From assembly GCA_016927065.1 (NCBI GenBank), contig JAFGNJ010000005.1:62001-126000 (forward strand): DNA of 64,000 nucleotides, written 5' to 3'. Under the pieces are notes generated by a model. The model saw only the letters and a program-made list of their open reading frames with translations. It was not told where the DNA came from and searched no databases. Made by a program: the position numbers and the translations under genes. Positions 4,640 through 27,779 of this stretch are shown here, piece by piece (position 1 is the stretch's first letter; each line of letters opens with the position of its first letter). The DNA comes from Deltaproteobacteria bacterium. Its GTDB lineage: Bacteria > Desulfobacterota > B13-G15 > RBG-16-54-18.

Positions 4640-6790
4640 TCAATTTTTAGCCCCGTATCGTTCGATGAGGGCTTGGGTCTCGGCGTCCAATAGACCGAAC
4701 GCTGCCAGCGTCTCTTGGGTGGGGACACCGTTGCGATCGTACCCCTTCTCCTCATATACGGCATCACAGAGTTCCTGATAGTGTCTCTGACGGATGCCGA
4801 TGAGCAGGTCGAGACGTTGCTGGAGGTCTGCCGGCAACCGATCCTCCCCCCCCACTATCTCAGCGAGCTGTGAGTCGTAGCGTTCTTGCCGTGAACGGTA
4901 CTCTTCGAGATAGACAGGGCTCATGGCGCGCAACGGGATCTGATCGTGCTCTCGGGTGCCGACGCCATGCTTGAGATTGATGAGTTTCTGCAAGGTGTAC
5001 AGGCGCTCTGAATCCCTGAGCAGATCATCCAAATTTTTGTTGGTTCCTACTGTCCCATTGTAGTGCTCGACAAAATATTGGGCGCTGGGTAGATTTTTGG
5101 CCGGTTCGGGGGTGCTGGCGGCCTCGGGATGCCGGATATCAATCCAGGGGAGTTTGCACAAACCTGTGGCGTTAAACCAGGTGCGAAAAAGCGGAAACCA
5201 CTTCAGGGCCTTCGCTTTCAGCTCGAAGTTGGGGAGTTCATTATTCACCTGATCCATAAAGATCATCCATGCCTCGTCATGCTGTGCCCCTTTGAGGGCG
5301 AAACCGTACCCTCCCTGCTGGGCCAGCGATTCTTTGGTGATATACAGAGAAAACTCAAGCCCCTTGCACTCCATACCGAATTTCTCCAGTTCACTCAGTA
5401 CGACCGCTCGATCACCGTGGTTGTTCCGCCCATAGTTCTCTGCAATCCACCCCTTGAGAAAACGGATTCCCTTTCCCGCTATCCGCCCAAACCCTTTGCC
5501 TGCGGCGATCTCATGAATCAGGCGGAGTGCCGTTTCCCTCTCCCCCCATCTCAGGGAATAGCCGATATCGTCGGCTTGCAGGAAGCCATGTTGGAAGCAC
5601 TCCATAAGGAATGCCGTGGTAACCCCTGCTGATATGGTATCCAAGCCATACTCGTCGCAGTACCAGTTATATTCGAGGATGAAGCGGGGGTCAAAAACCC
5701 CCGTAACGGGTCCAATCGCAGCGGTCTCGTATTCCGGCCCGTCGACGCTTACTTCTCTTCCCTTGTGGGGACCTGATTGTAAGGTAATGCCCTCAACCCC
5801 CTTGGCGCAGGCGAGGTTGCATCCATAATAACATCCATCGGGGTATCCGGCGGAAAAATATTCATCCTTGAAGACACCTCCATAGATACGATGCGACTCC
5901 TCATGGGTGCCCGTTTGAAAGTTGTGGATAGGAAGAATATCGAATTTGTCCATGTGGTCGACAAGACCGGTGGTTCCCCATTCCCTGAGGCGTATGCCGT
6001 GTGGGTCCTGGATCTTGATGATATGCTTCAGCTTACGCCCGGCCTCTCTAACCATATCAGGATTGGCCGGATGATTCGCCTTTCCCCGCGACAGACTGCT
6101 CGTCACGACAATAGCCTTGAGCCCTTTGAGCCTCATTACGGTCCCTGTGCCGCCTCGGCCCGCCTGCTTTGCGCGGAGACGGCTGCGCTTAGTATCAAAA
6201 AAGATGCTGTTGATAATGCCAAATAAGGAGTTTTTTCCCCCTATACCAGCAGCGACCGCGGCGATATGCTCCCGCTTTTTCCCCGGACAGAAGTACTTTA
6301 TCACCTGCTCTGCATAGCTTATGCTACCCTCTCCCTCGGGGGCTCTCATTAACTTAATCACCCCCCCATCTCCATCAATGAAGAGACATACATCCTGCGG
6401 GGCAATCCCCCTGATCGCCATGGCATCGAAGCCTGCAAGCTTGAATAGGGGAGCGAAATGCCCACCCGCATTGGAGTCGATGAAGGTACCGGTCAGGGGA
6501 GAGATGGTCCCTACGATAAACTTTCCGGTGCCTGGGAAGAGGGGTTCAGCCCCCAATGGCCCCCCGGCGAGAACCAGGATGTTCTCGGGGCTGTCGTAAC
6601 GGGTCTTCTCATCGGTGCCGTCCCAGATCAGTTTTAAGGCGTATCCCCTGCCGCCGATCCACTTCTCTTTGAAGTCTTCGGGCAACGCCTCGATCTGTAT
6701 CGAGTTATCCGCGAGGTCAACCCTCAGAATCCTGTCCGTGTATCCCCCCTTTACCTCAGCAGGACTGTATGGTACCTCGGCAATTGTCAT
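4640..6790 (-). CDS. Aldehyde ferredoxin oxidoreductase (AOR) family tungstopterin enzyme
   Basis: About 716 residues of the AOR family, oxidoreductases with a bis-pterin tungsten cofactor and one [4Fe-4S] cluster. Visible marks are GGRGYALKLIWD near the N-terminus, NILVLAGGPLGAEP, RGGTGTVMRLKGLKAIVV (pterin-binding region), the cluster cysteines in GCYYGCNLACAKG (C-x3-C-x3-C, not the usual C-x2-C-x3-C) and a later cysteine in ATGLCKLPW. The start at 6790 is chosen because GGAG lies eight bases upstream and a promoter (6822-6850) lies inside the longer frame. The substrate cannot be told: the family includes aldehyde oxidoreductases and benzoyl-CoA reductase BamB. No MoaD or ferredoxin partner gene is adjacent. 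Confidence 0.87.
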   Translation of the reverse strand: MTIAEVPYSPAEVKGGYTDRILRVDLADNSIQIEALPEDFKEKWIGGRGYALKLIWDGTDEKTRYDSPENILVLAGGPLGAEPLFPGTGKFIVGTISPLTGTFIDSNAGGHFAPLFKLAGFDAMAIRGIAPQDVCLFIDGDGGVIKLMRAPEGEGSISYAEQVIKYFCPGKKREHIAAVAAGIGGKNSLFGIINSIFFDTKRSRLRAKQAGRGGTGTVMRLKGLKAIVVTSSLSRGKANHPANPDMVREAGRKLKHIIKIQDPHGIRLREWGTTGLVDHMDKFDILPIHNFQTGTHEESHRIYGGVFKDEYFSAGYPDGCYYGCNLACAKGVEGITLQSGPHKGREVSVDGPEYETAAIGPVTGVFDPRFILEYNWYCDEYGLDTISAGVTTAFLMECFQHGFLQADDIGYSLRWGERETALRLIHEIAAGKGFGRIAGKGIRFLKGWIAENYGRNNHGDRAVVLSELEKFGMECKGLEFSLYITKESLAQQGGYGFALKGAQHDEAWMIFMDQVNNELPNFELKAKALKWFPLFRTWFNATGLCKLPWIDIRHPEAASTPEPAKNLPSAQYFVEHYNGTVGTNKNLDDLLRDSERLYTLQKLINLKHGVGTREHDQIPLRAMSPVYLEEYRSRQERYDSQLAEIVGGEDRLPADLQQRLDLLIGIRQRHYQELCDAVYEEKGYDRNGVPTQETLAAFGLLDAETQALIERYGAKN

Positions 6791-13205: not shown

Positions 13206-15599
13206 ATGGCTCAGTCTGATCCCATACGCATCCTTTACATTGAGGATGATCCCGGTCTGGCCCGTCTGGTGCAGAAGCGGTTGCAGCGGTCCGGGTATAT
13301 GGTGGACATTGCCACTGATGGTGAACAGGGGGTAGCCAAGTACGAGGCCGATTCTTATGATCTCATGTTTGTGGATCAGAATCTCCCCGTCTACGATGGG
13401 TTGGAGGTAATCCGTATCTTGGGTTCCAAGGGAATCTTGCCTCCCACGATCATGATCACAGGTTCCGGTGATGAACGGGTGGCGGTGGAGTCAATGAAGC
13501 TGGGAGCGAGCGACTACATCGTCAAAGATACGGGGGCGGGGTATCTTGAGCTCCTCCCCTCTGCTATCGAGAAGATACTCCAGCAACGGCGGGCCGAGGA
13601 AGCGCTGCGTGAGAGTCAGGAACAATACCGCACGCTCTTCGAGGGGTCCAAAGACGCGGTTTATATTACCACACGTGATGGCATGTTTATTGACGCCAAT
13701 CAAGCTGCCTTAGATCTCTTTGACTATACGATGGAAGAGATGCGACAGATTAACGCCCAAAAAATCTATGCTGATCATGCCGATATCCAGAGATTTCAGA
13801 AGGAGATAGAAAAAAAAGGATTTGTTCGGGACTTTGAATTAAAGTTGCGCAAGAAAGATGAGGTGGAAATAGATTGCCTGCTGACCGCGAATGTGCGGCG
13901 AGATTCTGTGGGAAATATTCTAGGATACCATGGAATTATCCGTGACATCACAGAACGCAAACGCATGGAAGAGGAACTGAGAAAGGCCAAAGATGAAGCT
14001 GAAACGGCCAACCGCGCCAAGACCGAATTTCTCGCCAGCATGAGTCACGAGATCAGAACACCGATGAACGCCATTATCGGCATGGCCGACCTGCTCTTAG
14101 AAACAGACTTAACCCCTGAACAGCAGCAATATGTCCAAGTCTTCCAGTCGGCAGGGGAAAATCTTTTAAACATCATTAATGACATCATCGATATTTCCAA
14201 GGTGGAGGCCGGCCACGTTCAACTCGAAACCATCGATTTTAATCTCACCGATATCATTGAAAGCACCTGTGACGTGATGGCCGTTCGTGCCCATGAAAAG
14301 GGCCTGGAGCTGGTTTATAGTGCTATGCCGGATGTCCCGACCGAACTCTTGGGTGACCCGACACGTTTGCGTCAGGTCCTGGTAAACCTTATCGGAAATT
14401 CCATCAAGTTCACTGAGAAAGGTGAGGTGTTCATTCAGATCAAAAGTCAGGAGGTAAAAAAAGAAACGGTTGAACTACTATTTTCGATAACTGACACCGG
14501 CATCGGCATTGCCCCGGAACAGATAGATAAGATCTTTGACTCCTTTACACAGGCCGATTCATCAACTACCCGCAAGTATGGTGGGACAGGACTCGGCCTG
14601 GCCATCTCAAAACAACTGGTGGAACTCATGGGCGGGCATATAACGGTGGAGAGCACGGTGGGCCAAGGTAGTATTTTTTCATTTACTGTGCAGTTTGCGA
14701 TTCAGGCCGAACCAAAAGAACGTATGGAGAAGATTGCGCTGGACATAAGAGGAGTTAAGGTACTTGTTGTTGATGACAACGAAACTAATCGCATGATATT
14801 GCGAAATACACTCTCCAAATTAGGTGCCATTATAACAGAATCGGACAGCGGCGAACATGGACTTGCCGAATTCAAGCGTGCCATGAAGACAAAAAGTCCA
14901 TATCAACTGGCATTAATCGACCACCGCATGCCGGGCATGGACGGGTTCGAGCTGGCCAAACACATAAAAGAAACCATGGGAAACATTAAGAACACGGCCG
15001 TCATGATGCTCACCTCAGATAACAGGAGCGGCGATCGTGCCCTCTGCAAAGAATTTGATATAACGTTTTATTTGGTAAAACCCGTAAAAAAGGCGGAACT
15101 GCTGGTTGCTATTGCTACCATTATGGGCCGCAAAATTGAGCCTGTTGTTGGCAAGATCCCGGAGGCAAGATCCGTCGACCTTACTAAAATACGCTCCCTG
15201 AACCTCCTCCTTGTCGAGGATTCCGCGGACAATCGTCTGATTATCCAGGCCTATTTCAAGAGGGCCTCGGATCATATAGACATAGCTGAAAATGGCGCCA
15301 TTGCCGTTGAAAAGTTCAAATCAGGGAAATATGACCTCGTGCTGATGGATGTACAGATGCCGGTCATGGACGGTTATGCTGCCACCCGGGAGATCAGGAA
15401 GTGGGAGCAGGAACAGGGGAGAAAACAAACACCTATCATTGCCTTGACCGCCCATGCCATGAAGGAAGATGTCCAAAAGAGCCTTGACGCAGGATGCACG
15501 GACCATCTGACAAAACCGATAAAACGGGCAACGCTGATGGAGGCCGTCCAAAAATATACAGGGGAAAAAATAACAAATAAAAAACCGGACCTCGTATGA
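13206..15599 (+). CDS. Hybrid histidine kinase (REC-PAS-HisKA-HATPase-REC-REC)
   Basis: A 797-residue soluble hybrid kinase. An N-terminal receiver (about 6-125, phosphoacceptor in [11 protein letters not shown]) is followed by a PAS domain (about 137-255), HisKA with H281 in [13 protein letters not shown], and HATPase with NSIKFTEKG and [10 protein letters not shown]. Two more receivers begin near residues 517 and 663, with acceptors in [13 protein letters not shown] and [13 protein letters not shown]. The architecture resembles BarA-type kinases. The input receiver suggests control by another kinase, and the following HPt gene is the natural phosphate acceptor. It starts six bases after the preceding response regulator gene. 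Confidence 0.92.
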
Positions 15600-15651: not shown

Positions 15652-15978
15652 ATGACTCAGCATAGTGCCCTCAAACACAATGAAAGGATCATCATCCACG
15701 TAGACCCCGAGATCGCCGACCTCGTCCCCGGTTTCCTTGAAAACAGGCGCAAGGACATAAAAACCATGGATGCAGCCCTCAAACAGGGTGATTTTGAGAC
15801 CATCCAGATTCTCGGGCACAGCATGAAGGGTGCGGGCGGAAGCTATGGATTCGACGCCGTTACCGACATAGGAAAATCATTGGAGGATGCCGCTAAAAAC
15901 AATAATGCCGAAGAGATCCAGAGGTCGGTAGGGGAACTTGCTGCATACCTTGACCGAGTTGAGGTGATCTACGAGTGA
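15652..15978 (+). CDS. HPt (histidine phosphotransfer) domain protein
   Basis: A 108-residue stand-alone HPt domain. The phosphorylatable H56 lies in ILGHSMKGAGGSYGF, followed by the helix DAVTDIGKSLEDAA, the standard four-helix bundle signature. AAGGAGG precedes the ATG. It would carry phosphate from the C-terminal receivers of the upstream hybrid kinase to another receiver. The nearest candidates are the two receivers on the PilB-like ATPase encoded immediately downstream. Confidence 0.9.
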   Translation: MTQHSALKHNERIIIHVDPEIADLVPGFLENRRKDIKTMDAALKQGDFETIQILGHSMKGAGGSYGFDAVTDIGKSLEDAAKNNNAEEIQRSVGELAAYLDRVEVIYE

Positions 15979-16058
15979 ACATAGGACGTCGCTGAGCAGG
16001 TTTGAATACAACCCTGCTGCATGCTTACCGTAACGATGGGGAGCAACGAGGTGATACG

Positions 16059-18644
16059 GTGAACACACCTGTAAAACCCTTGATCATGGTTGTTGACGAC
16101 AACCCAGATCAACTCAAACTGATGGAACGATTTCTGGCAAGCAGCGGCTATGCGGTCATCACTGCCGATAGCGGCAGCAACGGACTTGGTGTACTGGGCG
16201 AAGTCAAACCAGCTCTTATTCTGCTCGATGTCATGATGCCGGAGATGGATGGGTACGAGGTGTGTTCACGGCTGCAGAAAAACAGCGAGACTGCTTATAT
16301 CCCTGTCATTTTTATAACCGCCTTGGGAGAAGAACAGGACAAGGCCAGGGCCTTCGCTGTCGGCGCAGTTGACTACTTGGTAAAACCCGTCCAAAAGGAA
16401 ACCCTGCTCGAAAAGGTCCATATACATCTCACAACAAATAGCCGGTGGCAGGAACTCAAACAAGGTGTCGCTACCCCTGAGGAAAAGATTGAACCATCCG
16501 ATTTTCCTCACTTCAAGCAATTCTTGTTCGATCAATTAGATATTGATTCCACAAAGAAAGATCAAGTCACTGCTACGCCACCCTCCCATATCTATTCCAT
16601 GGCCCGTCACCTGGGGATCAGCAACAGCCAGATGGCCAAATATATCGCTGACTTTCTCAAGCTCCCCTATTACTCCCAAATCAACCCGTATGATGTCAAA
16701 TTGGGGGTCCTCCCCAGGCCTTTTTGCAAGACAAACCTCGTCGTTGCCCTCGGCAATGGAACAGAAAGAAACACCTTTGCACTGAGCAATCCCTTTAACT
16801 TGGAAACCCTGGATAATCTAAGAAAAATAAGCGGAGAGGATAAGGCCCTTAAGCTCGCCGTAACCGAACCCGAACATATCGAATTATTATTTCAGTATGA
16901 GTCAGACCTTGGTGCCGAGCAACCGACTAAAAAAGTCGTTATGGGTGGGAGCGTACAAGAAATCGAAGGGCCCACCCGGCAATTCCCCGTCGAAGAGCCA
17001 ATTGAACAAATATCGGAGGCAGATATTAAAAAACACCCTGTTGTGTATATTGCCAATACTATGATCAACAAGGCAGTTGCCGAACGGGCCAGCGACATCC
17101 ATGTTGAACCCAAGGAGGAGGAAACAGTCATCCGCTTCCGGGTTGACGGGGATTTGAAGGATTCATTTGCCCTGAAGAAGAACACCGGCGTTATGCTCAT
17201 TTCCCGACTCAAGGTCCTCGGCGGCCTTGACCTGGCTGAAAGACGGAAACCGCAGGATGGCTCTTTTGCGGCAACCATTAATAATAAGACCTTCAAGTTG
17301 AGGTTGGCTACCACGTCCACGCCGTACGGTGAAAGTCTCATTATTCGCTTGTTGGAACCGAGCGCCAAACCAAAAGACCTGAGTGAACTCGGCATGATGG
17401 ACAAACAAGTTAGCACCATGGCTGATTTTGCCAATCGAACCCATGGCGTTATCCTGATGGTCGGGCCCACCGGGTCGGGGAAGACAACGACCATCTACAG
17501 CTTCCTATCCCATATCGATTGCCAAACACGAAGCTTAATGTCCGTGGAAGACCCCGTAGAATACAATATAGCCTATGCCAATCAGCAGCAGGTAAACGAA
17601 AAGGCCGGGATTACCTTTGAATCCCTCCTCAAATCAGCAGTGAGGCAGGACCCCGACGTATTATTCTTGGGAGAGGTCAGAGACCCCTATTCCGCCAAGA
17701 TGTCGATAGACTTTGCCAGCACCGGTCACCTGACCGTCACGACGTTGCATACGTCCAATGCAACCACTGCCATCTTCCGCCTTGAGAGGCTGGGGCTTGA
17801 CCGGGGGACGATGGCGGACACCCTCATCGGGGTTGTCGCCCAGAGGTTATTGAAAAAGCTTTGCCCCCATTGCAAGCAGGTAGCGCAGATCTCACCGGAA
17901 GAAAGAGCAATGCTTGCACCATTTACGGATGAAGTTCCGTCCCAAGTTGCGCATCCTGTCGGATGTCCAAAGTGCAACAACACCGGTTACTTTGGCAGAG
18001 AAGGAATATATGAGATCATAAAATTTGATCATCAAATCTCTGATATGGTCCGTTCAGGCATGCCTATATCTGAGATAAGAAATTTTATCAGAGACAGGGG
18101 GGATTTTCTTATTAGCACCCATGTAGTGGAAAAGGCAAAAAAACTCCTGTTCGCTCCCAAGGATATTTATGAGCAAGTGCTGGTGGAGGAATTGGCATTT
18201 GAAGAAAAGAAACCTCAAAAGGAAGACCCCAAAAAGGAAAGTCATCACATACCCATCGAGGAAAAGGAGATAAAGGATCGGATATCGATCCTCGTTGTCG
18301 AGGACGATGCAGATTCTCGGAAGTTGGTAACCCGTTTCCTGGAAAATCACGGTTACGCCGTGACCCCTGCAGAAGATGGCGTCAGCGCCCTTCTTCAGCT
18401 AGGCAAAGGTACCTTTGACCTGATCATCTCGGATGTAAACATGCCTAACCTGAACGGCTTTAAATTACTGGAGATGAAGGGGCAAAAGGGGATTGAAACG
18501 CCTGTGATATTCCTGACATCCCGGTCCGATCCGGAAGACATGAACAGGGGATTAGGGCTTGGTGCGGTGGACTATATCACCAAACCGACCAAGAAGGATA
18601 TCTTGCTGGCAAAAGTCAAAGCAGTTCTTGAAAAAAGACAATAA
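16059..18644 (+). CDS. Type II/IV secretion (PilB/GspE-like) ATPase flanked by two receiver domains
   Basis: An 861-residue protein with the order REC, GspE/PilB ATPase, REC. The first receiver (about 8-125) has its acceptor in LILLDVMMPEMDG. A winged-helix-like N-terminal ATPase region follows, then GPTGSGKTTT (Walker A, from residue 469), the aspartate box, LFLGEVRDP (Walker B), the histidine box TTLHTSN, and the zinc-binding pair CPHC (about 605) and CPKC (about 637). The second receiver (about 742-858) has its acceptor in LIISDVNMPNLNG. GTG at 16059 with GAGG upstream is preferred; a TTG at 16002 would add 19 residues. Such ATPases power pilin polymerisation. Receivers at both ends are unusual and imply phosphorylation control. 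Confidence 0.9.
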   Translation: MNTPVKPLIMVVDDNPDQLKLMERFLASSGYAVITADSGSNGLGVLGEVKPALILLDVMMPEMDGYEVCSRLQKNSETAYIPVIFITALGEEQDKARAFAVGAVDYLVKPVQKETLLEKVHIHLTTNSRWQELKQGVATPEEKIEPSDFPHFKQFLFDQLDIDSTKKDQVTATPPSHIYSMARHLGISNSQMAKYIADFLKLPYYSQINPYDVKLGVLPRPFCKTNLVVALGNGTERNTFALSNPFNLETLDNLRKISGEDKALKLAVTEPEHIELLFQYESDLGAEQPTKKVVMGGSVQEIEGPTRQFPVEEPIEQISEADIKKHPVVYIANTMINKAVAERASDIHVEPKEEETVIRFRVDGDLKDSFALKKNTGVMLISRLKVLGGLDLAERRKPQDGSFAATINNKTFKLRLATTSTPYGESLIIRLLEPSAKPKDLSELGMMDKQVSTMADFANRTHGVILMVGPTGSGKTTTIYSFLSHIDCQTRSLMSVEDPVEYNIAYANQQQVNEKAGITFESLLKSAVRQDPDVLFLGEVRDPYSAKMSIDFASTGHLTVTTLHTSNATTAIFRLERLGLDRGTMADTLIGVVAQRLLKKLCPHCKQVAQISPEERAMLAPFTDEVPSQVAHPVGCPKCNNTGYFGREGIYEIIKFDHQISDMVRSGMPISEIRNFIRDRGDFLISTHVVEKAKKLLFAPKDIYEQVLVEELAFEEKKPQKEDPKKESHHIPIEEKEIKDRISILVVEDDADSRKLVTRFLENHGYAVTPAEDGVSALLQLGKGTFDLIISDVNMPNLNGFKLLEMKGQKGIETPVIFLTSRSDPEDMNRGLGLGAVDYITKPTKKDILLAKVKAVLEKRQ

Positions 18645-18659
18645 GAGGAAAACAGCATC

Positions 18660-19175
18660 ATGACTGATGAACCAAAGATAAACACTGTGTGCAAAGGGTG
18701 TGGGAAGTTACTCAGCCCGGACGAGCAAGGCTCTGAATATTGTAGCAGTTGTATGATCGAACGGGCAGAGGAATATGTCCCCGAAGCGCCGGAAAAATCA
18801 CCAATAAAACGGGAAAAGAAGAGCAAGGCATGGGTGATAGTACAAGTGGCGATCATCGTGATCGGCCTCGCCGTCATGGCTTTACAAACCCCCCGCTTAA
18901 TTGCCGCTTTACACGAGGGGCAACCGCTCAGAGAAGGCACCTATGCAACCGATACAGAGACCGATCAGTGTATCAAGAACCTCTGGCACATATCAAAACT
19001 CCTCCAAGAAGGACAATTGCATACGAACGGCATAGTCTGTCCCCTCAGCAACAAGCCGTATGAAATACGAGATACAGGGGAAGAGATCGTGGTGAGCTGT
19101 CCCAATCCGGAGCTTCATGGATTGAAGCAAATCCAGGTAAGCAAAAGACATCCTGTACCTAAGGTCAGCAAATGA
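18660..19175 (+). CDS. Zinc-ribbon membrane protein of the pilus-like locus
   Basis: A 171-residue protein of unknown function. The N-terminus has four cysteines (CKGCGKLL...YCSSC) arranged as a zinc ribbon at about residues 12-36. A single membrane helix follows at about 58-77 ([18 protein letters not shown]). The C-terminal region carries [24 protein letters not shown] and [11 protein letters not shown], a block resembling the variable part of minor pilins. It overlaps the downstream pilin gene by four bases (ATGA) and so is translationally coupled to it. It is possibly a pilin partner or membrane anchor; no family name is known to me. Confidence 0.7.
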
Positions 19176-19687
19176 AACGGCATGCAAAAAACAAGGGATT
19201 TACCCTCATAGAACTCATGTTGGTTGTAACCATTGCCGGTGTTTTGGCCTCAATTGCCATCCCTTCGTATCTCAATTACGTCCAGAAGGCGCGGGCAACA
19301 CAATGCCATGTAGACAGGGGTGAAGTACAGAATATCATCGTCCAATATTACCATGACCATTCCGATACCGAACTTCAAAGCCTGCAACAGTTGGTCGATG
19401 AAGGATACCTGCACAGCGCGTCTAATTGTCCTTTGGGAGGAGAGTATGTATTGATCCCACCAGAACTCGTTGGTTCCGAATATCCGGTTGTGGCATGTTC
19501 CCTTCACTATCTGCCGGAAATGGTATCACAGGAGGAATCTGAAACACCACAGGAACCAGCAACACCTGAAGAGTCAGATATCACAGAACACCCCCAAACG
19601 CCGGAAGAACCAGAACAAACAGAAGAGCCGGTAGACTCCGGCAAGAAAGACAAAGAAAAGAAGCAAAAAAAGGAAAAAAAGAAGTAA
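19172..19687 (+). CDS. Type IV pilin-like protein with prepilin signal
   Basis: A 171-residue type IV pilin or pseudopilin. MKRHAKNKG is a short basic leader, cleavage by prepilin peptidase is expected at G-FTLIE, and E5 of the mature form is present, followed by the hydrophobic helix [20 protein letters not shown]. Two cysteines lie in the globular part. The last 55 residues are unusual: a glutamate/proline/threonine-rich stretch (about 115-155), then a run of lysines ([14 protein letters not shown]). Its gene is coupled to the zinc-ribbon gene and lies downstream of the receiver-controlled ATPase, its probable motor. Confidence 0.9.
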
Positions 19688-19837
19688 AAAGCTCTAAATA
19701 TTCCTGGCAAGTTTGAGGTCCACATTTAAAGATAAGGGGGGGGCAAGAACCAACGGGTGTGGAGTGTCTTGTTATACGTACCACTATTCATGGGCATTCC
19801 CTTTCTCGCTCTTATCTCCATATACACCACGGGCGAG

Positions 19838-20686
19838 CTACTGTTTCATTCTCCACCTAATTGATCGTATCGATTTAAGCTGCGCCTTGAGAGGAGACTC
19901 CTTTTTATACACGTAGTCGCCGATACGGCGCATGCGCTCCAATTCTTCCTCACTCATAGGACCGCGCTCCAAGGCAGTAAGATCTTCCTTAAGCTGCTTC
20001 ATGCTGTTCGGGCCACAAACCGCTACATGTACGCAAGGATGAGAGAGCACAAAGCGGTAGCAATCGGCCGCAGTAGGAGGGAATTCATCCGGTGGCATAT
20101 TGGCCGGGTTGAGCAAACTCCCCCACCGGGTGTTAGTGAAGGAGACGATGCCGGGACCGCCTGCCTTCGGAAGACTATTGAAAACCTCTGTTTCAGCCCC
20201 CCGGTGCGCTGCATTGTACCGAACATGAAAGATATCAAACTGCTTCTCCTGCTCAAGTCTTGGGAAGAGGAGGCGATGGTGACTCGATATGGCCAAAGCA
20301 CGAATAACCCCATCATCCTTGAGCGTATCGGCATGTTCGACGAGCCGTGACCTGGGCCCTTGAGGATATCCCCCCATTCCCAGCAAGAGGACATCGATAT
20401 AATCGACGCCCAAACGCTTCATGCTTTTGTATACAACCCTGTTCATGGAAGGCACGGTACGGGCCATGGTCTACACTACAATAATAAGACCATCTCGATT
20501 TTTGCGAGCTACCCTTTTAATACCCTCGGCCATCCTTCGGGTCCGCAATGCCCCCCAGTAGAGATAATTCACGCCGTGGGCCACTGCCTCCTCGACCATG
20601 GCCTCGTCCGTACCATAGCTTGAGGCAATGCCAAGGCGAGTGACGGAAAACCCGGTCCGGCCCAGCTTGATCCTCTCAAACAACAT
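19838..20686 (-). pseudogene. Aldo/keto reductase interrupted by an in-frame amber codon
   Basis: Two open stretches in the same frame, 20686-20471 and 20470-19838, together encode one aldo/keto reductase family oxidoreductase. The first begins MLFERIKLGRTGFSVTRLG and ends DGLIIVV, then TAG at 20473-20471, then TMARTVPSMNRVVYKSMKRL and LGVDYIDVLLLG. No bases are missing, so a single substitution (for example CAG to TAG) explains the stop. A second ATG three bases after the stop could restart translation of the C-terminal 209 residues, but these lack the first strand and helix of the barrel. Readthrough is possible but there is no evidence for it. Confidence 0.82.
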
Positions 20687-20803
20687 AACTTCCCTTTCTA
20701 AATTACTATGGGTGGTTTTGCGGATAGCGCGGTGAGTGTAAGCGTATGAAGACCCGGACCGAGACGTCTATCCCGAAAGGGGGCTTCTTGGGCCATACAT
20801 ACC

Positions 20804-20947
20804 ATGGCACAAAAACAAACAAAAAGACTTATTATCAAAACAGACATCGTGTTCCGAATATGCCTTTGCGTCATTCTCGGCTTACTTCTCATGCTTTTTG
20901 CTGTCAACTGTTTCAGGGGAAGTGCTTCTCATCTCCCGTTACCTTGA
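20804..20947 (+). CDS. Possible small single-helix membrane protein (47 aa)
   Basis: An open frame from ATG at 20804 in the roughly 300-base gap between the aldo/keto reductase and the amidohydrolase. It begins MAQKQTKRLIIKTDIVF, then a hydrophobic stretch of about 20 residues (RICLCVILGLLLMLFAV), and ends ASHLPLP. The basic head followed by one helix suits a small inner-membrane protein. There is no clear ribosome binding site and I know of no homologue, so it may be chance. Nothing else is seen in this gap. Confidence 0.28.
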   Translation: MAQKQTKRLIIKTDIVFRICLCVILGLLLMLFAVNCFRGSASHLPLP

Positions 20948-20987
20948 GTAATGATGGGGCAACGCTAGTCTCAATGTAAAAACTAAT

Positions 20988-21926
20988 TTACCTACAATGA
21001 TCTGGGAGTCTATATTCATCCAGCCTCCACATCCGCTCTGCATTGCCGTGCGCAAGGGCATGAGCGATGTTTGATGGAAGCTCATGCAAGGCATCTTGCC
21101 ATAGTTTCACAACGTGTTTATATTGCACGTCCCAATGATATCTCCACACATTATCTATGGCAAAAATAAATCTTTTCGGATAAGCGGTTATCAATTCTTT
21201 CCATTCAGGTTTCAGCATCAGTGTTTCCTCGTCAAACATTTGTGTCCAAGGCTGATTAGATCCGGCACCCTGTATAGGGTTGCAGCAGGATGTCATAAAA
21301 TAGATACGGTCACTTTCCTCAAGCAGTTCACTCATCATCGTATCATTCATCTGCGCCATATGGATCAGCACTATGGGGTGTTTTGCCTGTCTTGATAATG
21401 ACCATAACTCTTTGAGTTCTCGTTTAAATCTCATTAATTCTTGCAGTTCAGTTGCAGATCTTTCACGTTCTATACGGGACATAAAGGCCGCATACTCGAT
21501 GTGAGCCACAAGCGGCCAGCCTTTTGCCTTCGCAGCATTATACGCTGCCTCAACTTGAGGATCCTTTGGACACACAAGTACCTCACCTGCGATGACCTCA
21601 CCCGCTTGATTCCTCTTTGCAGCATGATAGAGTAGAACCTCTCCAAGAGCACCAAAGCAGTTGCTTGTAACATGTTGATGAAGATTTTCGTAATACTGAG
21701 GATCGTTATTGATGTAAGCCTGTCCTTTGGTTCGAATCGCAGGTATTATGAGGCCCGGTACATTTGCGGCGGTAAAATCCAGGATGTCACGATGTGTCCG
21801 CATACCGCGGGGCGCAAGTATGGTACGCTTTACTCCTGACTTAGACATTCTCCTGGTGATCAGGCTCAGGTCAGTCAAGTGTTCATCCACCTGACTATGG
21901 GCATCAACAAAATAAAGGTCGTCCAT
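20988..21926 (-). CDS. Amidohydrolase family (TIM-barrel) protein
   Basis: A 312-residue protein of the amidohydrolase-2 type. VDAHSQVDEHL takes the place of the usual DxHxH metal motif (the second histidine is not in the standard position). AHIEYA and IVLIHMAQMND match later metal-ligand strands, and FAIDNVW supplies the terminal aspartate region. HGNAERMWRL is the common C-terminal HxNAxRLL signature of the family. The substrate is unknown. A large imperfect palindrome (21938-22003) sits just upstream of its start. It stands at the edge of the attC-bearing region and may not be part of it. Confidence 0.75.
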   Translation of the reverse strand: MDDLYFVDAHSQVDEHLTDLSLITRRMSKSGVKRTILAPRGMRTHRDILDFTAANVPGLIIPAIRTKGQAYINNDPQYYENLHQHVTSNCFGALGEVLLYHAAKRNQAGEVIAGEVLVCPKDPQVEAAYNAAKAKGWPLVAHIEYAAFMSRIERERSATELQELMRFKRELKELWSLSRQAKHPIVLIHMAQMNDTMMSELLEESDRIYFMTSCCNPIQGAGSNQPWTQMFDEETLMLKPEWKELITAYPKRFIFAIDNVWRYHWDVQYKHVVKLWQDALHELPSNIAHALAHGNAERMWRLDEYRLPDHCR

Positions 21927-21937
21927 TATCCTTTAGG

Positions 21938-22003
21938 GTAACGTTCAGCTTGAAGGACGTGGGCGGAGCACATAGCGTAATAAACGTCCTTCTCAAACAT
22001 TAC
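21938..22003. repeat. Imperfect palindrome upstream of the amidohydrolase gene
   Basis: GAAGGACGT (21952-21960) pairs with ACGTCCTTC (21984-21992), and the outer flanks GTAAC and ATTAC extend the dyad imperfectly. It could be an operator for the amidohydrolase gene or a degraded attC-like element at the end of the cassette region. Confidence 0.4.
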
Positions 22004-22081
22004 TCCACCCCCTTCTGCAAAAATTTTTGTAAGTTTGTTAATCTGTTTATCTTGGGACCGAAGGTTTATAAAGTTCCTGAT

Positions 22082-22120
22082 CAGCCGCGCTTTTCGTCGG
22101 CTGCATTAGCCTTGTTAGGG
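22082..22120 (-). repeat. Partial attC site of the methyltransferase cassette
   Basis: On the minus strand CCCTAACAAGG (R''-like box) is followed by a stem CAGCCG-acgaaaagcg-CGGCTG, the typical attC core. The matching R' box is not recognisable, so the site looks decayed. It begins four bases after the methyltransferase stop codon, where a cassette attC is expected. Confidence 0.55.
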
Positions 22121-22123
22121 CTG

Positions 22124-22779
22124 CTATTTTAAGCTTGGCTTTTTTGCAAATGCATAAGCCCTTCGGCTTTCGTACTCCACTTCGGGATATGGTTCTCTCT
22201 CGATTATCTCTATCTTCTCAAATCCAACCTTCTTTAGACAACGAGAAATAAAATCTGTAGTGAAGAGCATGAAATCTATATCGATTTTTTTGCCGAGGAA
22301 CTCTTCTATGCAGATTGTATCCTCGCCAATATGGTATGTAAAGAGGAATAATCCGCCTAACTATAATACACAAAATACTTCACCAAAGAACATTTCTACC
22401 TGTTCTTCTGTGAAGTGAACAATAGCATAGAAGGCCACAACATCGGCTATCGAGCCGTTTCAAATTCGAGTTCAAGAATATTTCCCTTTCGGAAGTGTAT
22501 CTCCGGATGAATTAATCTTGCCTGTTCTAGTATTTTTTCTGATAGATCCAGCCCAGAGATTTCAACGCCAAGATCCTTCAGGTATTTTGTAGTTTGACCG
22601 GGACCGCAGCCGAAATCCCAGACCGGCCTTCTGTCCCCGATCTCTTGAGAAAATCTGTGGAGTATTTCTTGGTCCTTCGTTTTCTTTTCGTGTTCACCAG
22701 CAAATGCCTCCGCATATTCCTTCGCTACCGTATCGTACGCCCTTGCAATTTTATTTAATTCCTGTCCCATAATACTCAT
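22124..22779 (-). pseudogene. SAM-dependent class I methyltransferase, frameshifted
   Basis: The first 110 residues read MSIMGQELNKIARAYDTVAKEY... with VWDFGCGPGQTTKYL, the SAM-binding motif I, and ISGLDLSEKILEQA. The frame then stops at about 22447. A one-base shift there opens a continuation: IADVVAFYAIVHFTEEQVE, then a TAG after FGEVFCVL, then LGGLFLFTYHIGED and, to the natural end, KKVGFEKIEIIEREPYPEVEY. At least two lesions separate it from a functional gene. Its neighbours are cassette genes with attC-like sites on either side. Confidence 0.82.
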
Positions 22780-22781
22780 AG

Positions 22782-22841
22782 CACTAATGCCGAAAACCAG
22801 CCGCGCGGCCTTTTGTGTTGGTTGAATTTGCCTTATGAGCC
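22782..22841 (-). repeat. Degenerate attC-like site
   Basis: Lies immediately downstream of the unknown gene at 22846-23385. Outer boxes GCTCATAAGGC and GGCATTAGTGC, with inner arms AACCA and TGGTT around GGCCGCGCGGC, form an imperfect dyad of attC type. The boxes depart from the RYYYAAC/GTTRRRY consensus, so it is called with caution. Confidence 0.42.
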
Positions 22842-22845
22842 GCTC

Positions 22846-23385
22846 TCATCTCTCCCTTGTATTCTCAAGTAATTCATTAAGCCGAATAAAAAATTCATTT
22901 CGTATCTTTTCAATATGCAACGCTTCTTGAAAATCAATTATTGCCGTATCTTCATACTTAAACCGATCTGGTTCCACTTGCAGCGCATAAGAATTTACCT
23001 GTCTCTCCCAAAACCATTCTGCACAACAGAATTGGACGTTATCCGGATCGATAGCCGGGATTTCCTTTAATGCTTCAAAGAGCTTTCTTCCCGCCAGACT
23101 ATTCTCAATGCAGAAGGCAATGTATGCAATCCTGTACTCCACTTTGTCAATGCTACCTTTTGCCGGCAAGGGATCAAAGTTATGAGAATCCTTTTGACCG
23201 TTGTAGACAAAATGACCATAACAGCTTTGCAGAGTGAAGCAATAAGGCAATTCGTTGAACCCTTTGATAAGATCTATAATAGGCAAGTCAATCATATCAT
23301 CAGTAAGAGCGCGCAGTATTTTCTTTTTTTGCGCTTGATAATGCGGATTTTCCGTTAATTCTTTCAGTTCAGTAAAGGTTTCCAA
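22846..23385 (-). CDS. Cassette-encoded protein of unknown function (179 aa)
   Basis: I do not recognise this protein. It is soluble, without signal peptide or membrane helices, and moderately rich in aromatic residues (FTLQSCYGHFVYNGQK, FCCAEWFWERQVNSYAL). Two cysteines adjoin in QFCCAEW. It is a single-gene unit on the minus strand, with an attC-like element after its stop and a hairpin (23399-23429) before its start, as expected for a mobile cassette gene. Confidence 0.6.
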   Translation of the reverse strand: METFTELKELTENPHYQAQKKKILRALTDDMIDLPIIDLIKGFNELPYCFTLQSCYGHFVYNGQKDSHNFDPLPAKGSIDKVEYRIAYIAFCIENSLAGRKLFEALKEIPAIDPDNVQFCCAEWFWERQVNSYALQVEPDRFKYEDTAIIDFQEALHIEKIRNEFFIRLNELLENTRER

Positions 23386-23398
23386 TGTGCTGTCCCTG

Positions 23399-23429
23399 AT
23401 ACTAAATAAGGGAAAGCCCCATTTAGTAT
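23399..23429. repeat. Hairpin between two cassette genes
   Basis: ATACTAAAT (23399-23407) and ATTTAGTAT (23421-23429) are perfect inverted arms around a 13-base spacer whose AGGG and CCCC can extend the stem. It follows the stop codon of the small membrane protein gene (23440). There is no T-run, so a plain terminator is less likely than a degraded recombination site. Confidence 0.45.
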
Positions 23430-23439
23430 GAAGTTTAGG

Positions 23440-23847
23440 TTAAAGATTGCTTTTAAATTCCTGCATAGAAAGTTTTTCAGGTATTGACTTTTTATGCAAA
23501 AAAATGGGGTGGGGGATTGTATTATAGGTATGTACCAATGATAAATAATTTTGCTTCCTTGATCTGAAATGCTCTTTTGCTTCATCCATCCTCAATAATA
23601 AAGCATCCCCTTGCTCTATGAGAGAGATGGTTCTTTGGTCTTTGCGGTTCTCATTTTTTAAGAAGGATATTTGATCTTGGATTTGCTCTCCTTTCACTAA
23701 AAAATCATCTATCATCATCAATTCATCTTCCACTATCTGGAACTGTTTATATACGGATAGTTTTCTATTATATAATCCATTATCCCTAATAATAAGAACT
23801 ACGATCAAGAGTATTAAAAAGCCAATAAAGATTGAAAGTTTTTTCAT
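23440..23847 (-). CDS. Small cassette-encoded membrane protein
   Basis: A 135-residue protein starting MKKLSIFIGFLILLIVVLIIRDNG, a single N-terminal membrane helix or uncleaved signal anchor. The rest is charged and probably helical or coiled-coil (QFQIVEDELMMIDDFLVKGEQIQDQISFLKNENRKDQRTI). Its function is unknown. The ATG at 23847 is chosen because a longer frame upstream would run through the attC site at 23856-23921, which is not expected to be coding. Confidence 0.6.
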   Translation of the reverse strand: MKKLSIFIGFLILLIVVLIIRDNGLYNRKLSVYKQFQIVEDELMMIDDFLVKGEQIQDQISFLKNENRKDQRTISLIEQGDALLLRMDEAKEHFRSRKQNYLSLVHTYNTIPHPIFLHKKSIPEKLSMQEFKSNL

Positions 23848-23855
23848 AAGTAAGA

Positions 23856-23921
23856 ACCTAACACCCAGTTTCACAGGACGCGGCGACCTATCAGCGTTCC
23901 TGTGCAAACTGATGTTAGAGC
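23856..23921 (-). repeat. attC recombination site (integron cassette)
   Basis: About 66 bases on the minus strand begin with CTCTAAC (R'') and end with GTTAGGT (R'), both matching the attC consensus. Inside, CAGTTTGCACAGGAACG and CGTCCTGTGAAACTG form the characteristic imperfect stem with an unpaired base. It lies 50 bases after the stop of the nuclease-like gene 23972-24463, the normal position in a cassette. Confidence 0.82.
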
Positions 23922-23971
23922 AGGCCCTCATTCCTTCATGCCATTGTTCACCATAGAAAAGACTATAAGTA

Positions 23972-24463
23972 TTACCAGGACCAATTTGTTTCTTGAAAAT
24001 TGATTTTAATGTGTTTCACCAATGGATCTGATATATACTTCTCCTGATATTTGGGTCCCATTTTCCAATCGTCTATAGCTTTCCCACTGCGGCGATAATT
24101 AGCGTCGTAGTTTTCAAGACTCGTCAGATATATGTCAGCCTGATCCGTCGCCTCAACGTAGACAGCTAGCCAAGGCTCACAGGCGAAGGTTTCACAGGCA
24201 GCTATTGTTTTCTGGCGGTCATCTTTGCCCTTCTGGTATGAAAAGATATTTACAGACGATTCCTCCTTACCAATAGTACGAGTTCTGGATTTGACTGTGA
24301 TGCCAAGACGGCGACGAGTAGAAGGGCTATAGGCCACGATATCAATTCCGGTATGATCTACTATCGCTACTTCCCAGCCTGAACGTGAGAGCCAATTGCA
24401 TATAATCAACTCACCACAATCTCCGATGATCTTTTGATGTCGCGTACTTTTTAGGATACCCAT
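23972..24463 (-). CDS. PD-(D/E)XK nuclease-like protein, cassette-encoded
   Basis: A 163-residue protein with the sequence order of the PD-(D/E)XK nuclease core: an N-terminal helix with a glutamate (IIGDCGELIICNWLSRSG), then HTGIDIVAYSP and RRLGITVKSRTR, where D, then T-V-K (in place of E-x-K), would form the active site. The glutamate of the E-x-K pair is replaced, so catalysis needs testing. It is followed by a good attC site. The neighbouring upstream gene encodes a different protein of the same fold. Defence or plasmid-maintenance roles are common for cassette genes, but none is shown here. Confidence 0.6.
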   Translation of the reverse strand: MGILKSTRHQKIIGDCGELIICNWLSRSGWEVAIVDHTGIDIVAYSPSTRRRLGITVKSRTRTIGKEESSVNIFSYQKGKDDRQKTIAACETFACEPWLAVYVEATDQADIYLTSLENYDANYRRSGKAIDDWKMGPKYQEKYISDPLVKHIKINFQETNWSW

Positions 24464-24478
24464 TAGGAAATTCCCATC

Positions 24479-24500
24479 CGCCTGCAGGCGCTAGTTAGAG
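24479..24500 (-). repeat. Vestigial attC site
   Basis: CTCTAAC (R''-like, containing the stop codon of the upstream gene) followed by the perfect palindrome CGCCTGCAGGCG. The second half with the R' box is absent, and the next gene starts 16 bases beyond. It is probably a deleted or fused cassette junction. Confidence 0.45.
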
Positions 24501-24995
24501 CCTGCTGCTAATCATGGACCAATTGTCTTTATAGTCTCGCAAATCCCGTTCGACGATGGCGCAATGCAGTGAATCGGGTTTTCTGGGCCTTACTCCGCCA
24601 TGAGAGTCAAGCCAACGCGAGTAGTTTGCGATTAGAATGTCCTGCACTTTCGACCATTCAAGTATGAAGAATTGATCCTCGCCGTACTTCTCTGCAGCAA
24701 GAACGAACACGCACACCAATTGTCGAATTGGAAGAGGTTTCTTACCCCCGATGAGCTGCTTGCTTCCATCGAAAGTAATGTCTGCGAATTTGTCGATCGA
24801 GAATTGCCATGCCCCTCCTTTGATGGTTTTTACCTGGATTGGACATGAAGAACCCTTGAAGTCGGTAGCTATGAGATCAAAGTCAGGAACATTGCCAGAA
24901 AAGGTTGCAACGAGAAGCCCTCGTCGAGCAAGCTCGCAGGCAACCAGATATTCGCCGATCTGTTTGATTAGCTGATTACTTCGCCCTGTGGCCAT
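24495..24995 (-). CDS. PD-(D/E)XK nuclease-like protein, cassette-encoded
   Basis: A 166-residue protein with GEYLVACELARRGL (helix with conserved glutamate), then VPDFDLIATDFKG and PIQVKTIKG. D, then Q-V-K, occupy the positions of the PD-(D/E)XK catalytic residues, with glutamine in place of the acidic residue as in some active nucleases. This N-terminal layout resembles small restriction-endonuclease-like proteins and Holliday junction resolvase-like folds. Its stop codon lies inside the R'' box of a vestigial attC. Only 31 bases separate it from the next nuclease-like gene, so the two may be co-transcribed. Confidence 0.62.
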   Translation of the reverse strand: MATGRSNQLIKQIGEYLVACELARRGLLVATFSGNVPDFDLIATDFKGSSCPIQVKTIKGGAWQFSIDKFADITFDGSKQLIGGKKPLPIRQLVCVFVLAAEKYGEDQFFILEWSKVQDILIANYSRWLDSHGGVRPRKPDSLHCAIVERDLRDYKDNWSMISSRL

Positions 24996-25017
24996 ACACT
25001 TCCATCCTTTTCCTGAG

Positions 25018-25085
25018 TTCTAACAAAGCTCGGGGTCAGGCGCGGAGGCGCGTTAGCGCCGATGTGCCTGGAACTGTTGTTAGCC
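25018..25085 (-). repeat. attC recombination site (integron cassette)
   Basis: A 68-base site on the minus strand runs from GGCTAAC (R'') to GTTAGAA (R'). The inner arms GTTCCAGGC-ACATCGGCGC and GCGCC-TCCGCGCCTGACC pair imperfectly around TAAC, as in classical 59-base elements. It lies 66 bases past the stop of the endonuclease III-like gene. Confidence 0.85.
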
Positions 25086-25150
25086 ATTTCCAATTAATGG
25101 CGCGAACATCTCATAGCTGGGACAAAGAACGCCATTGTTCATTAGCCACT

Positions 25151-25888
25151 TTACGCAGAGACTACTTTTCTGCACTCTGAAGAGACAATGCAGTCACTGC
25201 AGTTTGGTAGTTTTGGGCGACACCACTTCCTTCCAATTTCCCAACATGAAAAATCTATTATTCCAGGGAAATCAGGATTCAATTCACGCGCCTTATAGAT
25301 AACCATGTCGTTATTAGCATCGGAAGGAACAAAGCCCATTCGTTTCATTACTCTAATGATGTGTACATCGGGAGATATATCGATTGAGTAATAATCGGAA
25401 AATGGAATCCTGAATTGTCTGGCAAGAATATTAGCCGCCATCGTTGATATTTTGATGCCACTCCCTTTGAATTCTAAGAATCTATATACAACTGCTGAAC
25501 TACTTGGATTGTTGCTCCAGATATTAGCGGCATTACCTTCATACTTATTATTGATCTGCAATATGGCATCATGAAACACAGATGCCATAGTATCGTTAAA
25601 TCTGTGGAGCTTATTTATATTAAAAATTCGTTTCAGTTCCAAGAGTCCAACCTTTGAGAGGTCCTCTAAGAGAAACGAATTCAGTTCTTTGTAGATTGAA
25701 TAGGGAATTGCCCACGCACGTTCAGCCTTAATCTGTCGATCCATGAGACATGCAAGTACATATGCGTGAGGATATTTCTTGAGATCATTCAGGATGCTAT
25801 TTGCCTTATCATCATCCACAAAATGCACCATCTGGCTTGTTGGGTGCATGAAGCGCTCTTTGGCAATTCGGACAAGCAAGCTTTCCAT
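25151..25888 (-). CDS. Endonuclease III-like HhH/Fe-S protein, cassette-encoded
   Basis: A 245-residue protein of the HhH-GPD base-excision superfamily. The C-terminus has WCRPKLPNCSDCIVSSEC, the C-x6-C-x2-C-x5-C iron-sulphur loop of endonuclease III and MutY. SIDISPDVHIIRVMKRMGF corresponds to the segment with the catalytic aspartate region (DxHV) in these glycosylases. The N-terminal 120 residues are divergent. It may act in DNA base repair or, given its cassette location, as a defence nuclease or glycosylase. It carries its own attC downstream (25018-25085). Confidence 0.72.
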   Translation of the reverse strand: MESLLVRIAKERFMHPTSQMVHFVDDDKANSILNDLKKYPHAYVLACLMDRQIKAERAWAIPYSIYKELNSFLLEDLSKVGLLELKRIFNINKLHRFNDTMASVFHDAILQINNKYEGNAANIWSNNPSSSAVVYRFLEFKGSGIKISTMAANILARQFRIPFSDYYSIDISPDVHIIRVMKRMGFVPSDANNDMVIYKARELNPDFPGIIDFSCWEIGRKWCRPKLPNCSDCIVSSECRKVVSA

Positions 25889-25906
25889 AGGTTATGCTCT
25901 TTTCAG

Positions 25907-25995
25907 GGTTAATGGCCGAGTTGAGCGGAATCCGAGCAACGGAGAAAAGGTTGATATTTTGGGGTTAGGCGGATTTCCGCTCCAGTGCCTTGTTC
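25907..25995 (-). repeat. Degenerate attC-like site upstream of the first cassette
   Basis: GAGCGGAATCCG (25923-25934) and CGGATTTCCGCTC (25970-25982) form an inverted repeat. On the minus strand GAACAAGGC opens the element and ATTAACC closes it, each one or two bases from the R''/R' consensus. It would be the site at which the endonuclease III-like cassette joined a now-lost neighbour. The stretch from 26000 to 26432 holds no gene that I can support: GC-rich up to 26130, then AT-rich with a TATAAT at 26228. Confidence 0.45.
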
Positions 25996-26432
25996 GCGCC
26001 GGAGGCGCGGCAAAGCGTCTGAGTGGAGCTCAGCTCGGCCATTCGCGCCGCCGTCGCCCATTATCTCTTCCCTATTTTTCCTCGCGACCAACTACACCTC
26101 CGCGCCCAGCTGTTGTAATAGGCGGCGCGAACATTTATTTTTAAGCGTATTCTACTAAATATCCAATTTTATTTCGTAAAAGGAAGGTTGTCAAGAATTG
26201 TTGCGTAGAAATAGCCAGAAAATTCTATATAATAATAAGCTGGTTTTCAAACTGATAGCTTTTACCGTTTTCCACTTTCAGTTAACAGCTTCCCGTTTGC
26301 AATCACCTTCCTATCGCACAGTTGGGACAATAAAACTCATTCGAACGGATTCTTAACACCTTTTCCCATTGAACTCCCCCTCACCCCACGATATAATATA
26401 AGTTCACAGTTTTTCTGGAGATTACCCTGTCT

Positions 26433-27779
26433 ATGAAAATCCTTTTGATTTCACCGGAACGGGAGAGAAAAAAAGAGGAAGACTTCCTCTTCCGCCTCGG
26501 CTTTTTGAACCTCCCCTATGTGGCCTCGGTGACACCTCCGGATTGCGAGGTGCGGATCGTGGATGAGGCCTATGAAAAAATAGACTTCGATGACAAAGTA
26601 GACCTGGTGGGGATATCGGCCCAGACCCCGGTGGCTCCTCGGGCTTACCGGGTCGCCGAGGAATTTCGCAAGCGGGGGGTGCCGGTGGTCATGGGCGGCG
26701 TGCATGCCAGCGTGCTCCCCGAAGAGGCCTTAGAGCATGTGGATGCGGTAGTGATCGGCGAGGCAGAGGCCACGTGGCCTCAACTCCTTGAGGATTTTCG
26801 CCAGGGCAAATTAAAAAAAATTTACAAATCCAACGGATGGGTGCAGGGGGATACCATTCCCCTGCCGCGAAGAGAGCTGTTAAACCCTCGCCACTATTTC
26901 CCTTTGAAACTCTTAGAGACAACCCGCGGCTGTCCCCACCGGTGCGATTTCTGCCAGGTATCGCGTTTCTTCGGCAACCGGTACCGCACCCGCCCCCTTG
27001 CGGAAATCGCCAAAGAACTTGACTCTATGTTCGGACAAGGCCCGGTTATGCCCCCCTGGGCCGCACGGCTCCTCTCTCTTATCAGCAAAGACCTCCCTTA
27101 TTTTTTGAAGCGGAGGCTTTTGTACATCATCGATAACAATGTAGTTTCGAATAAGCAATTTGCCATCGAATTGCTCTCTCTCTTGAAAGACTATGACCTC
27201 CTGTGGTGGGGACATGCCCCGGTCTCCATCGCCCAAGACGATAAACTCCTGAGGCTCTTTGCCGCAAGCGGCTGTATCGCCGTCAACATCGGCTTCGAAT
27301 CCCTCTCCCCCAAAAACCTCAAGCACATCAAGAAGGGATTCAACAAGCCCTCGCAGTATCAGGAGGTGATCAAAAAAATCCACGGGTATGGGATAGGGAT
27401 CATGGGGACCTTTATCGTGGGTCTGGATGACGACGACCCCGGGGTGTTTCAGGAGACCATAGACTTTATTCTAGAAAACAAACTCGATTGGGCCTTGGCC
27501 TTTATCATGACCCCCTACCCCGGCACCGAGTCCTTTGAGCGGCTGGAGAGGGAGGGGAGGATCCTGCACAGGGATTGGGAGCGATACGATTCCCTGAATA
27601 CTGTCTATCAACCCCTCCTGATGAGCGCGGAGGAACTGGAACAAGGGTTACGGCGTATATGGAAAGAGATCTTCTCCCTCAGATCCCTCTTCCACAGGAT
27701 CATTAAATCCCCGCGCGTCCACCCCCTCTTTTACCTCCCCATGAACTGGGGTTTTCACCGCCTCACCAAGAACTGGTAG
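26433..27779 (+). CDS. B12-binding domain radical SAM protein
   Basis: A 448-residue radical SAM enzyme. An N-terminal cobalamin-binding-like Rossmann domain (about 1-130) shows VGISAQTPVAPRAY and VVMGGVHASVLPEEAL, typical of the B12-radical SAM subgroup. The core follows with TTRGCPHRCDFCQVSRFFG, the CxxxCxxC motif for the [4Fe-4S] cluster and SAM, and later ILENKLDWALAFIMTPYPGT. Members perform methylations, ring contractions or other radical chemistry on many substrates; none can be assigned here. It is a monocistronic-looking gene next to the integron-like region and upstream of ccsB. Confidence 0.87.
   Translation: MKILLISPERERKKEEDFLFRLGFLNLPYVASVTPPDCEVRIVDEAYEKIDFDDKVDLVGISAQTPVAPRAYRVAEEFRKRGVPVVMGGVHASVLPEEALEHVDAVVIGEAEATWPQLLEDFRQGKLKKIYKSNGWVQGDTIPLPRRELLNPRHYFPLKLLETTRGCPHRCDFCQVSRFFGNRYRTRPLAEIAKELDSMFGQGPVMPPWAARLLSLISKDLPYFLKRRLLYIIDNNVVSNKQFAIELLSLLKDYDLLWWGHAPVSIAQDDKLLRLFAASGCIAVNIGFESLSPKNLKHIKKGFNKPSQYQEVIKKIHGYGIGIMGTFIVGLDDDDPGVFQETIDFILENKLDWALAFIMTPYPGTESFERLEREGRILHRDWERYDSLNTVYQPLLMSAEELEQGLRRIWKEIFSLRSLFHRIIKSPRVHPLFYLPMNWGFHRLTKNW

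Follow-up and report, generated by a model that had tools for sequence, protein, structure and literature searches.

Control of extension motors of the type IV pilus kind has been described through c-di-GMP, PilZ/FimX, partner proteins, inhibitor peptides, and inhibitors such as CpiA, and a 2024 review of PilB control makes no mention of a receiver domain. In Acinetobacter, PilB works on one machine together with TfpB (PMC11656802). TfpB is a further ATPase of the extension type, separate from PilB, found in the one-platform genome of Acinetobacter baylyi and described without receiver or HPt control (PMC8213720; PMC11656802). In Synechocystis, direct action on an extension motor has been proposed for the CheY-like receiver protein PixE, a PATAN-REC regulator, which would bind PilB1 in trans once released from PixD (PMC7690835). 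Combinations of receivers with MshEN-type domains were catalogued with c-di-GMP in mind; the accessible part of that survey describes neither an HPt linkage nor a double-receiver motor (PMC5013675). Hybrid kinase-HPt-response regulator phosphorelays, for their part, unite a donor kinase lacking an HPt domain, a separate HPt protein, and a receiver output, classically a DNA-binding or enzymatic domain.

The locus analyzed here lies in a window of 64,000 nucleotides from a Deltaproteobacteria bacterium. It encodes a protein, the motor, that shares with PilB, GspE, and MshE (PF00437) the ATPase core, the Walker, Asp, and His boxes, the tetracysteine site, and a partly MshEN-like N-domain. It differs from them in belonging to a separate clade, in scoring under the NCBIfam equivalog cut-offs (GspE, 392 of 630; TfpB, 369 of 850; PilB, 356 of 676 bits), in having receivers at one or both ends within its family, and in having a dedicated HPt protein. 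Like TfpB, it is a second extension-type ATPase in a one-platform genome. Unlike PixE, it has its receivers in the same chain and a linked HPt gene; unlike the architectures of the 2016 survey, its clade is devoid of the c-di-GMP motif; and the output of its cassette is a filament motor ATPase. The first-pass annotation knew of no characterized motor with a receiver-ATPase-receiver layout. The open-access literature bears this out, since we found in it neither a characterized receiver-fused extension motor nor an account of the HPt linkage; receiver fusions to MshEN or T2SSE proteins as such, however, had already been catalogued in 2016 (PMC5013675).

Domain structure of the motor and its neighbors

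The genes for a hybrid kinase, an HPt protein, the motor, a zinc-ribbon membrane protein, and a prepilin follow in this order on the plus strand (Table 1). The motor frame opens with a GTG codon, with GAGGTGA just 5′ of it; this start residue is common to the homologues, and the in-frame alternative is a TTG at 16002. Pfam searches returned two Response_reg domains (7.6e-59 in all; residues 9 to 120 and about 743 to 859), a T2SSE domain (1e-106; 357 bits against a curated cut-off of 24.9), and a partial MshEN match at residues 215 to 279 (1e-7) that was absent from the first-pass annotation.

Table 1. Features of the motor locus, in nucleotide positions of the window
Feature	Coordinates	Strand	Basis
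Hybrid histidine kinase, REC-PAS-HisKA-HATPase-REC-REC, without an HPt domain	13206-15599	+	Pfam
Single-domain HPt phosphotransfer protein; H56 in GHSMKGAGGSYGFD, codon 15817-15819	15652-15978	+	Pfam Hpt
Motor, REC - N-domain - PilB/GspE-type ATPase - REC, 861 aa	16059-18644	+	Pfam, site residues, motifs, tree
REC1, residues 9-120; D57 codon 16227-16229	16083-16418	+	Pfam, site residues, AlphaFold2
N-domain, residues 148-284, partly MshEN-like, without the c-di-GMP motif	16500-16910	+	Partial MshEN match
T2SSE ATPase core, residues 325-684, with Walker A/B, Asp and His boxes, Cys4	17031-18110	+	Pfam, motifs, fold search
REC2, residues 743-859; D792 codon 18432-18434	18285-18635	+	Pfam, site residues
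Membrane protein, 171 aa: N-terminal CxxC..CxxC zinc-ribbon-like, one transmembrane helix, pilin-like C-terminal stretch	18660-19175	+	
Type IV prepilin, GFTLIE, N_methyl 2e-8	19172-19687	+	Pfam

The phosphoacceptor aspartates noted earlier in both receivers proved to be part of full pentads, D13 D14 D57 T87 K109 in REC1 and E748 D749 D792 T820 K842 in REC2, i.e., the acidic pair, phospho-Asp, Thr, and Lys of a phosphorylatable response regulator. The ATPase motifs were likewise intact, as had been claimed: Walker A (GPTGSGKTT), Walker B (DPDVLFLGEVRD), the Asp box (ASDIHVEP), the His box (TGHLTVTTLHT), and the tetracysteine site (CPHC/CPKC) are kept, with minor variation, in all 28 members of the family, i.e., this motor and those of 27 relatives. 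The T2SSE score and these motifs place the motor in the PilB/GspE extension ATPase superfamily (PF00437), and its tetracysteine site and N-domain argue for an extension motor rather than a PilT.

A fold search with the motor model returned GspE/PilB and receiver structures, the same as those obtained from sequence. Two AlphaFold2 runs (9 and 24 sequences; mean pLDDT, 62 to 65) gave good models of the receivers and N-domain, with a confidence of about 80 to 92 for REC1, and a poor model of the ATPase, and neither fixes the domain arrangement or the placement of the receivers on the motor. The 24-residue c-di-GMP motif (RLGxx..., in the strict and relaxed forms of PMC5013675) is missing from the N-domain of all 28 members, and control by c-di-GMP through MshEN is therefore disfavored. 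The relaxed motif occurs in just 10 of 55 PilB/GspE proteins outside the family, so that lacking it does not set the family apart and gives no evidence that phosphate has replaced c-di-GMP.

The HPt protein and hybrid kinase that had been placed just upstream are both real by Pfam and, for the HPt protein, by its H56 site: the Hpt domain scores 2e-11 (44.4 bits), and the sequence GHSMKG fits H-x-x-K-G. Standalone and hybrid receivers are also encoded next to the motor. The membrane protein has no Pfam match. In several families the motor has homologues of this protein and of the prepilin among its linked genes; the membrane protein was found in 9 of 395 sampled genomes, in seven beside the motor, in one (G114) at a locus cut by a contig end, and in one (G152) without the motor. 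In this last genome (L241:1861-3227), the membrane protein, paired with the prepilin in the absence of a receiver motor, no longer has a zinc ribbon. The membrane proteins of G245 and G298 are fused to an HPt domain in which another residue stands in place of the His (ATNLKG and ASNLKG); each fusion (L147:6310-7131 and L224:9331-10170) has an intact HPt gene from that same family beside it. What resembled another membrane-protein fusion in G239, an open frame of 990 codons, was rejected as a run of N in the assembly.

The linked prepilins of several relatives carry 3keto-disac_hyd or Laminin_G_3 domains, both lectin-like folds, at their C termini (L145:3550-4467, L147:7110-8018, L149:8189-9091, and L216:3776-4819 and 5363-6226). 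In four relatives (G169, G010, G239, and G048) a radical-SAM gene closely follows the prepilin. Its counterpart in the window (26433-27779) is separated from the prepilin by about 6.7 kb of other genes (19688-26432), apparently a lineage-specific insertion.

Distribution of the receivers and linkage to the HPt gene

Relatives were sought in several hundred genomes of the same phylum. The double-receiver layout recurred in 14 genomes of five families (G000, G169, G010, G239, G048, G224, G245, G177, G298, G395, G350, G429, G407, and G474; REC2 of G239 is interrupted by an assembly gap), but one-receiver members and other fused ATPases came up as well. Receivers at both ends are thus real and not obligatory, half of the family having a single one. 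Eleven members have only REC2, REC1 being absent from nine, including G378, whose upstream region is broken by a stop codon, and degenerate in two (G355 and G421, with Ser-Ala in place of the acidic pair); a further three (G067, G417, and G391) have REC1 and no REC2. The double layout is patchy, occurring in 5 of 8 genomes of the home family and in 4 of 46 of another class.

Where present, the receivers are well kept. All relatives with a complete REC2 sequence conserve its pentad; that of REC1 is conserved in the 14 double-receiver members, with one D-to-N and one T-to-S exception. Rough dN/dS ratios for five pairs of relatives were 0.10 to 0.22 for REC1, 0.06 to 0.29 for REC2, and 0.04 to 0.17 for the ATPase core, indicating that the receivers are maintained by purifying selection. 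This selection and the occurrence of full-length relatives at 55 to 82% identity in other families led us to reject chance or a frame artifact. A pattern search of genome contigs for the fusion of receiver and ATPase yielded none among at least 80 loci listed; a common receiver peptide prevailed in its patterns, so that this result has no bearing on other phyla. No record in the plasmid collection covered 80% of the motor protein.

A single-domain HPt gene adjoins the motor in 28 of 28 members, often with an 8-base overlap. Order and orientation vary, and the adjacency persists even where the gene order is inverted. The H-x-x-K-G site is intact in every one of these HPt proteins (consensus GH-x-MKG-x-GG-x-YGFD; AHKIKG in one). 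A profile of the members' HPt proteins found none within about 1.5 kb at any of the 59 further PilB/GspE loci to which it was applied. Although members within one family are not independent, at least six families show the linkage. By this comparison the HPt protein is the most constant partner of the motor, and the combination of HPt, receiver, and motor is, on comparative grounds, more fundamental than receivers at both ends. A whole-genome search found one Hpt domain in this organism, that of the gene upstream of the motor; this sole HPt protein may serve other receivers too. Directly after the active His, the 14 double-receiver members all have Ser and all the other members Lys, a split that may reflect the receiver partner or only ancestry.

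The hybrid kinase is less constant. About half of the motor neighborhoods contain a homologue of it, some neighborhoods being cut by contig ends, and it was rejected as the constant partner. Sensor domains of the linked kinases vary (PAS, GAF, or Cache), the HisKA-HATPase-REC build is constant, and none of those examined has an HPt domain, which fits what a relay through a separate HPt protein needs. The proposal that the motor is switched directly by phosphorylation and fed by HPt and kinase is thus partly supported by comparative evidence: the HPt linkage, the sole HPt protein, the build of the linked kinases, and the chimeras described below.

A maximum-likelihood tree of 90 ATPase cores grouped 23 members in one clade (stem, 2.01 changes per site; support, 100/100). 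This genome's own PilB lies outside it, so that the motor belongs to a subfamily distinct from that PilB. Other receiver-fused ATPases (G135, G033, G071, G077, and G001) fell outside the clade. One-receiver PilB-type ATPases with the receiver at the N or C end lie outside it at L151:8736-10955, L152:5881-8103, L153:7959-10361, L154:8839-11079, and L155:3242-5638, and no HPt gene of the motor's family was found beside these five. Receivers have joined other PilB-type ATPases separately from the motor clade.

The three members without REC2 were rejected as plain members and classed as chimeras. The ATPase cores of G067 and G417 fall outside the member clade; G391 is cut by a contig end and was called from motifs alone. 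REC1 and the N-domain of G067 and G417 match the motor clade (202 bits, G067 to G224), whereas their core matches another type of PilB (564 bits to L163 versus 207 to 231 bits to clade members). The REC1 pentad is conserved in both complete chimeras. At the chimera loci (L150:8608-11067, L204, and L206) the different core likewise stands beside an HPt gene, arguing that the HPt gene goes with the receiver module rather than with a particular ATPase lineage.

Platform genes and alternative readings

Four T2SSE genes are present in the genome (2.48 Mb; 93.6% complete): the motor, a canonical PilB, PilT, and a PilT-like gene amid housekeeping genes. PilB and PilT sit on another contig in a pilB-pilT-pilC-pilS-pilR cluster, which holds the only PilC, with two T2SSF domains. 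PilC was present in 16 of 16 cassette genomes tested, never on the cassette contig, and in exactly one copy in seven, this genome included. An extra extension ATPase with a single PilC is, at the level of genes, a TfpB-like arrangement. A search for secretins in this 93.6% complete genome gave one weak, short match and nothing full length, although most relatives have a full-length secretin. The motor probably assembles its filament through the PilC shared with PilB and PilT. Heterologous PilB often fails on a foreign PilC (PMC11656802), so that sharing of the platform is not assured.

The single PilC and the separate pil cluster would also suit a motor that modulates the ordinary PilB under phosphate gating, joining or competing with it at PilC while phosphorylation sets a brake or a priming step, and both ATPase-ATPase interactions and a priming idea for TfpB have been reported (PMC11656802). 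We regard this as rather unlikely: a pure modulator would have no need of the catalytic residues kept in 28 of 28 members, the motor has a linked prepilin of its own, and its stem of 2.01 changes per site marks a strong divergence from PilB. Another product of the motor, i.e., a T2SS-like secretion pseudopilus or the surface display of a lectin-domain prepilin instead of a long dynamic pilus, is suggested by GspE being the nearest solved structure by score (287 bits) and giving the best NCBIfam score, under its cut-off, and by the big C-terminal lectin-like domains on the prepilins of relatives. The PilB scores are nearly equal to those of GspE, however, and there is no gsp operon nearby, making this product improbable.

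It is very unlikely that the receivers are phosphate sinks or docking sites for the sole HPt protein, with an ATPase that is not switched. The single HPt found genome-wide, the standalone and hybrid receivers next door, and the presence of one receiver only in some members are compatible with such a role, which explains neither the fusion of receiver and motor nor the move of the HPt gene, together with the REC1 and N-domain module, to a different core. Ordinary domain shuffling of little functional meaning might be read from the receiver fusions to MshEN and T2SSE proteins known elsewhere (PMC5013675); given the HPt linkage in 28 of 28 members, the conserved sites, and the purifying selection, this is already disfavored and hardly credible.

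A candidate phosphorelay-controlled extension motor

We favor, with moderate confidence, an additional, dedicated motor that extends type IV-type filaments under the control of a multistep phosphorelay. A signal would be sensed by a hybrid kinase, here probably the one encoded upstream, which would load its own receivers, and the stand-alone HPt protein, to which this kinase is probably the phosphate donor, would pass the phosphate to the receiver or receivers on the ATPase. A long helix connects REC1 to the N-domain, and phosphorylation of REC1 would change how the N-domain engages the membrane base. As the N-domain of PilB-type motors is thought to contact the stator and to undergo nucleotide-linked displacement (PMC11656802), a receiver fused there is well placed to act. 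REC2 would act from the C-terminal side of the motor, and both receivers together would allow or block assembly of the neighboring prepilin, which is probably the subunit handled by the motor, probably through the single PilC platform held in common with the ordinary PilB/PilT system. The zinc-ribbon membrane protein probably serves as an adaptor or as a pilin-like partner. Phosphotransfer, the direction of the switch, the use of PilC, and the identity of the subunit are the parts of this model that we infer. Against a phosphorelay motor count the single receiver of half of the members and a kinase that is sometimes not nearby, and we found no experiment on the clade.

The phosphorelay motor may combine two switches in a single chain, with REC1 on the N-domain that faces the base and REC2 toward the C terminus; both would be served by one dedicated HPt protein and form a two-input or sequential gate on assembly. 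The phospho-dead HPt domains of G245 and G298 might then dock a motor receiver at the membrane, HPt-receiver recognition being reused as a mechanical coupling. We put forward this elaboration tentatively and consider it unlikely.

Direct phosphate control of filament growth is undescribed in the open-access literature for any studied motor of the PilB/GspE kind. With one Asp and one His to address, the motor would be a testable system for the coupling of the poorly understood N-domain to the motor. If the model is true, built-in receivers and a dedicated HPt protein would constitute a direct two-component output on filament assembly. The filament probably bears sugar-binding domains in several relatives, whose lectin-like prepilins suggest controlled adhesion, under the command of phosphate.
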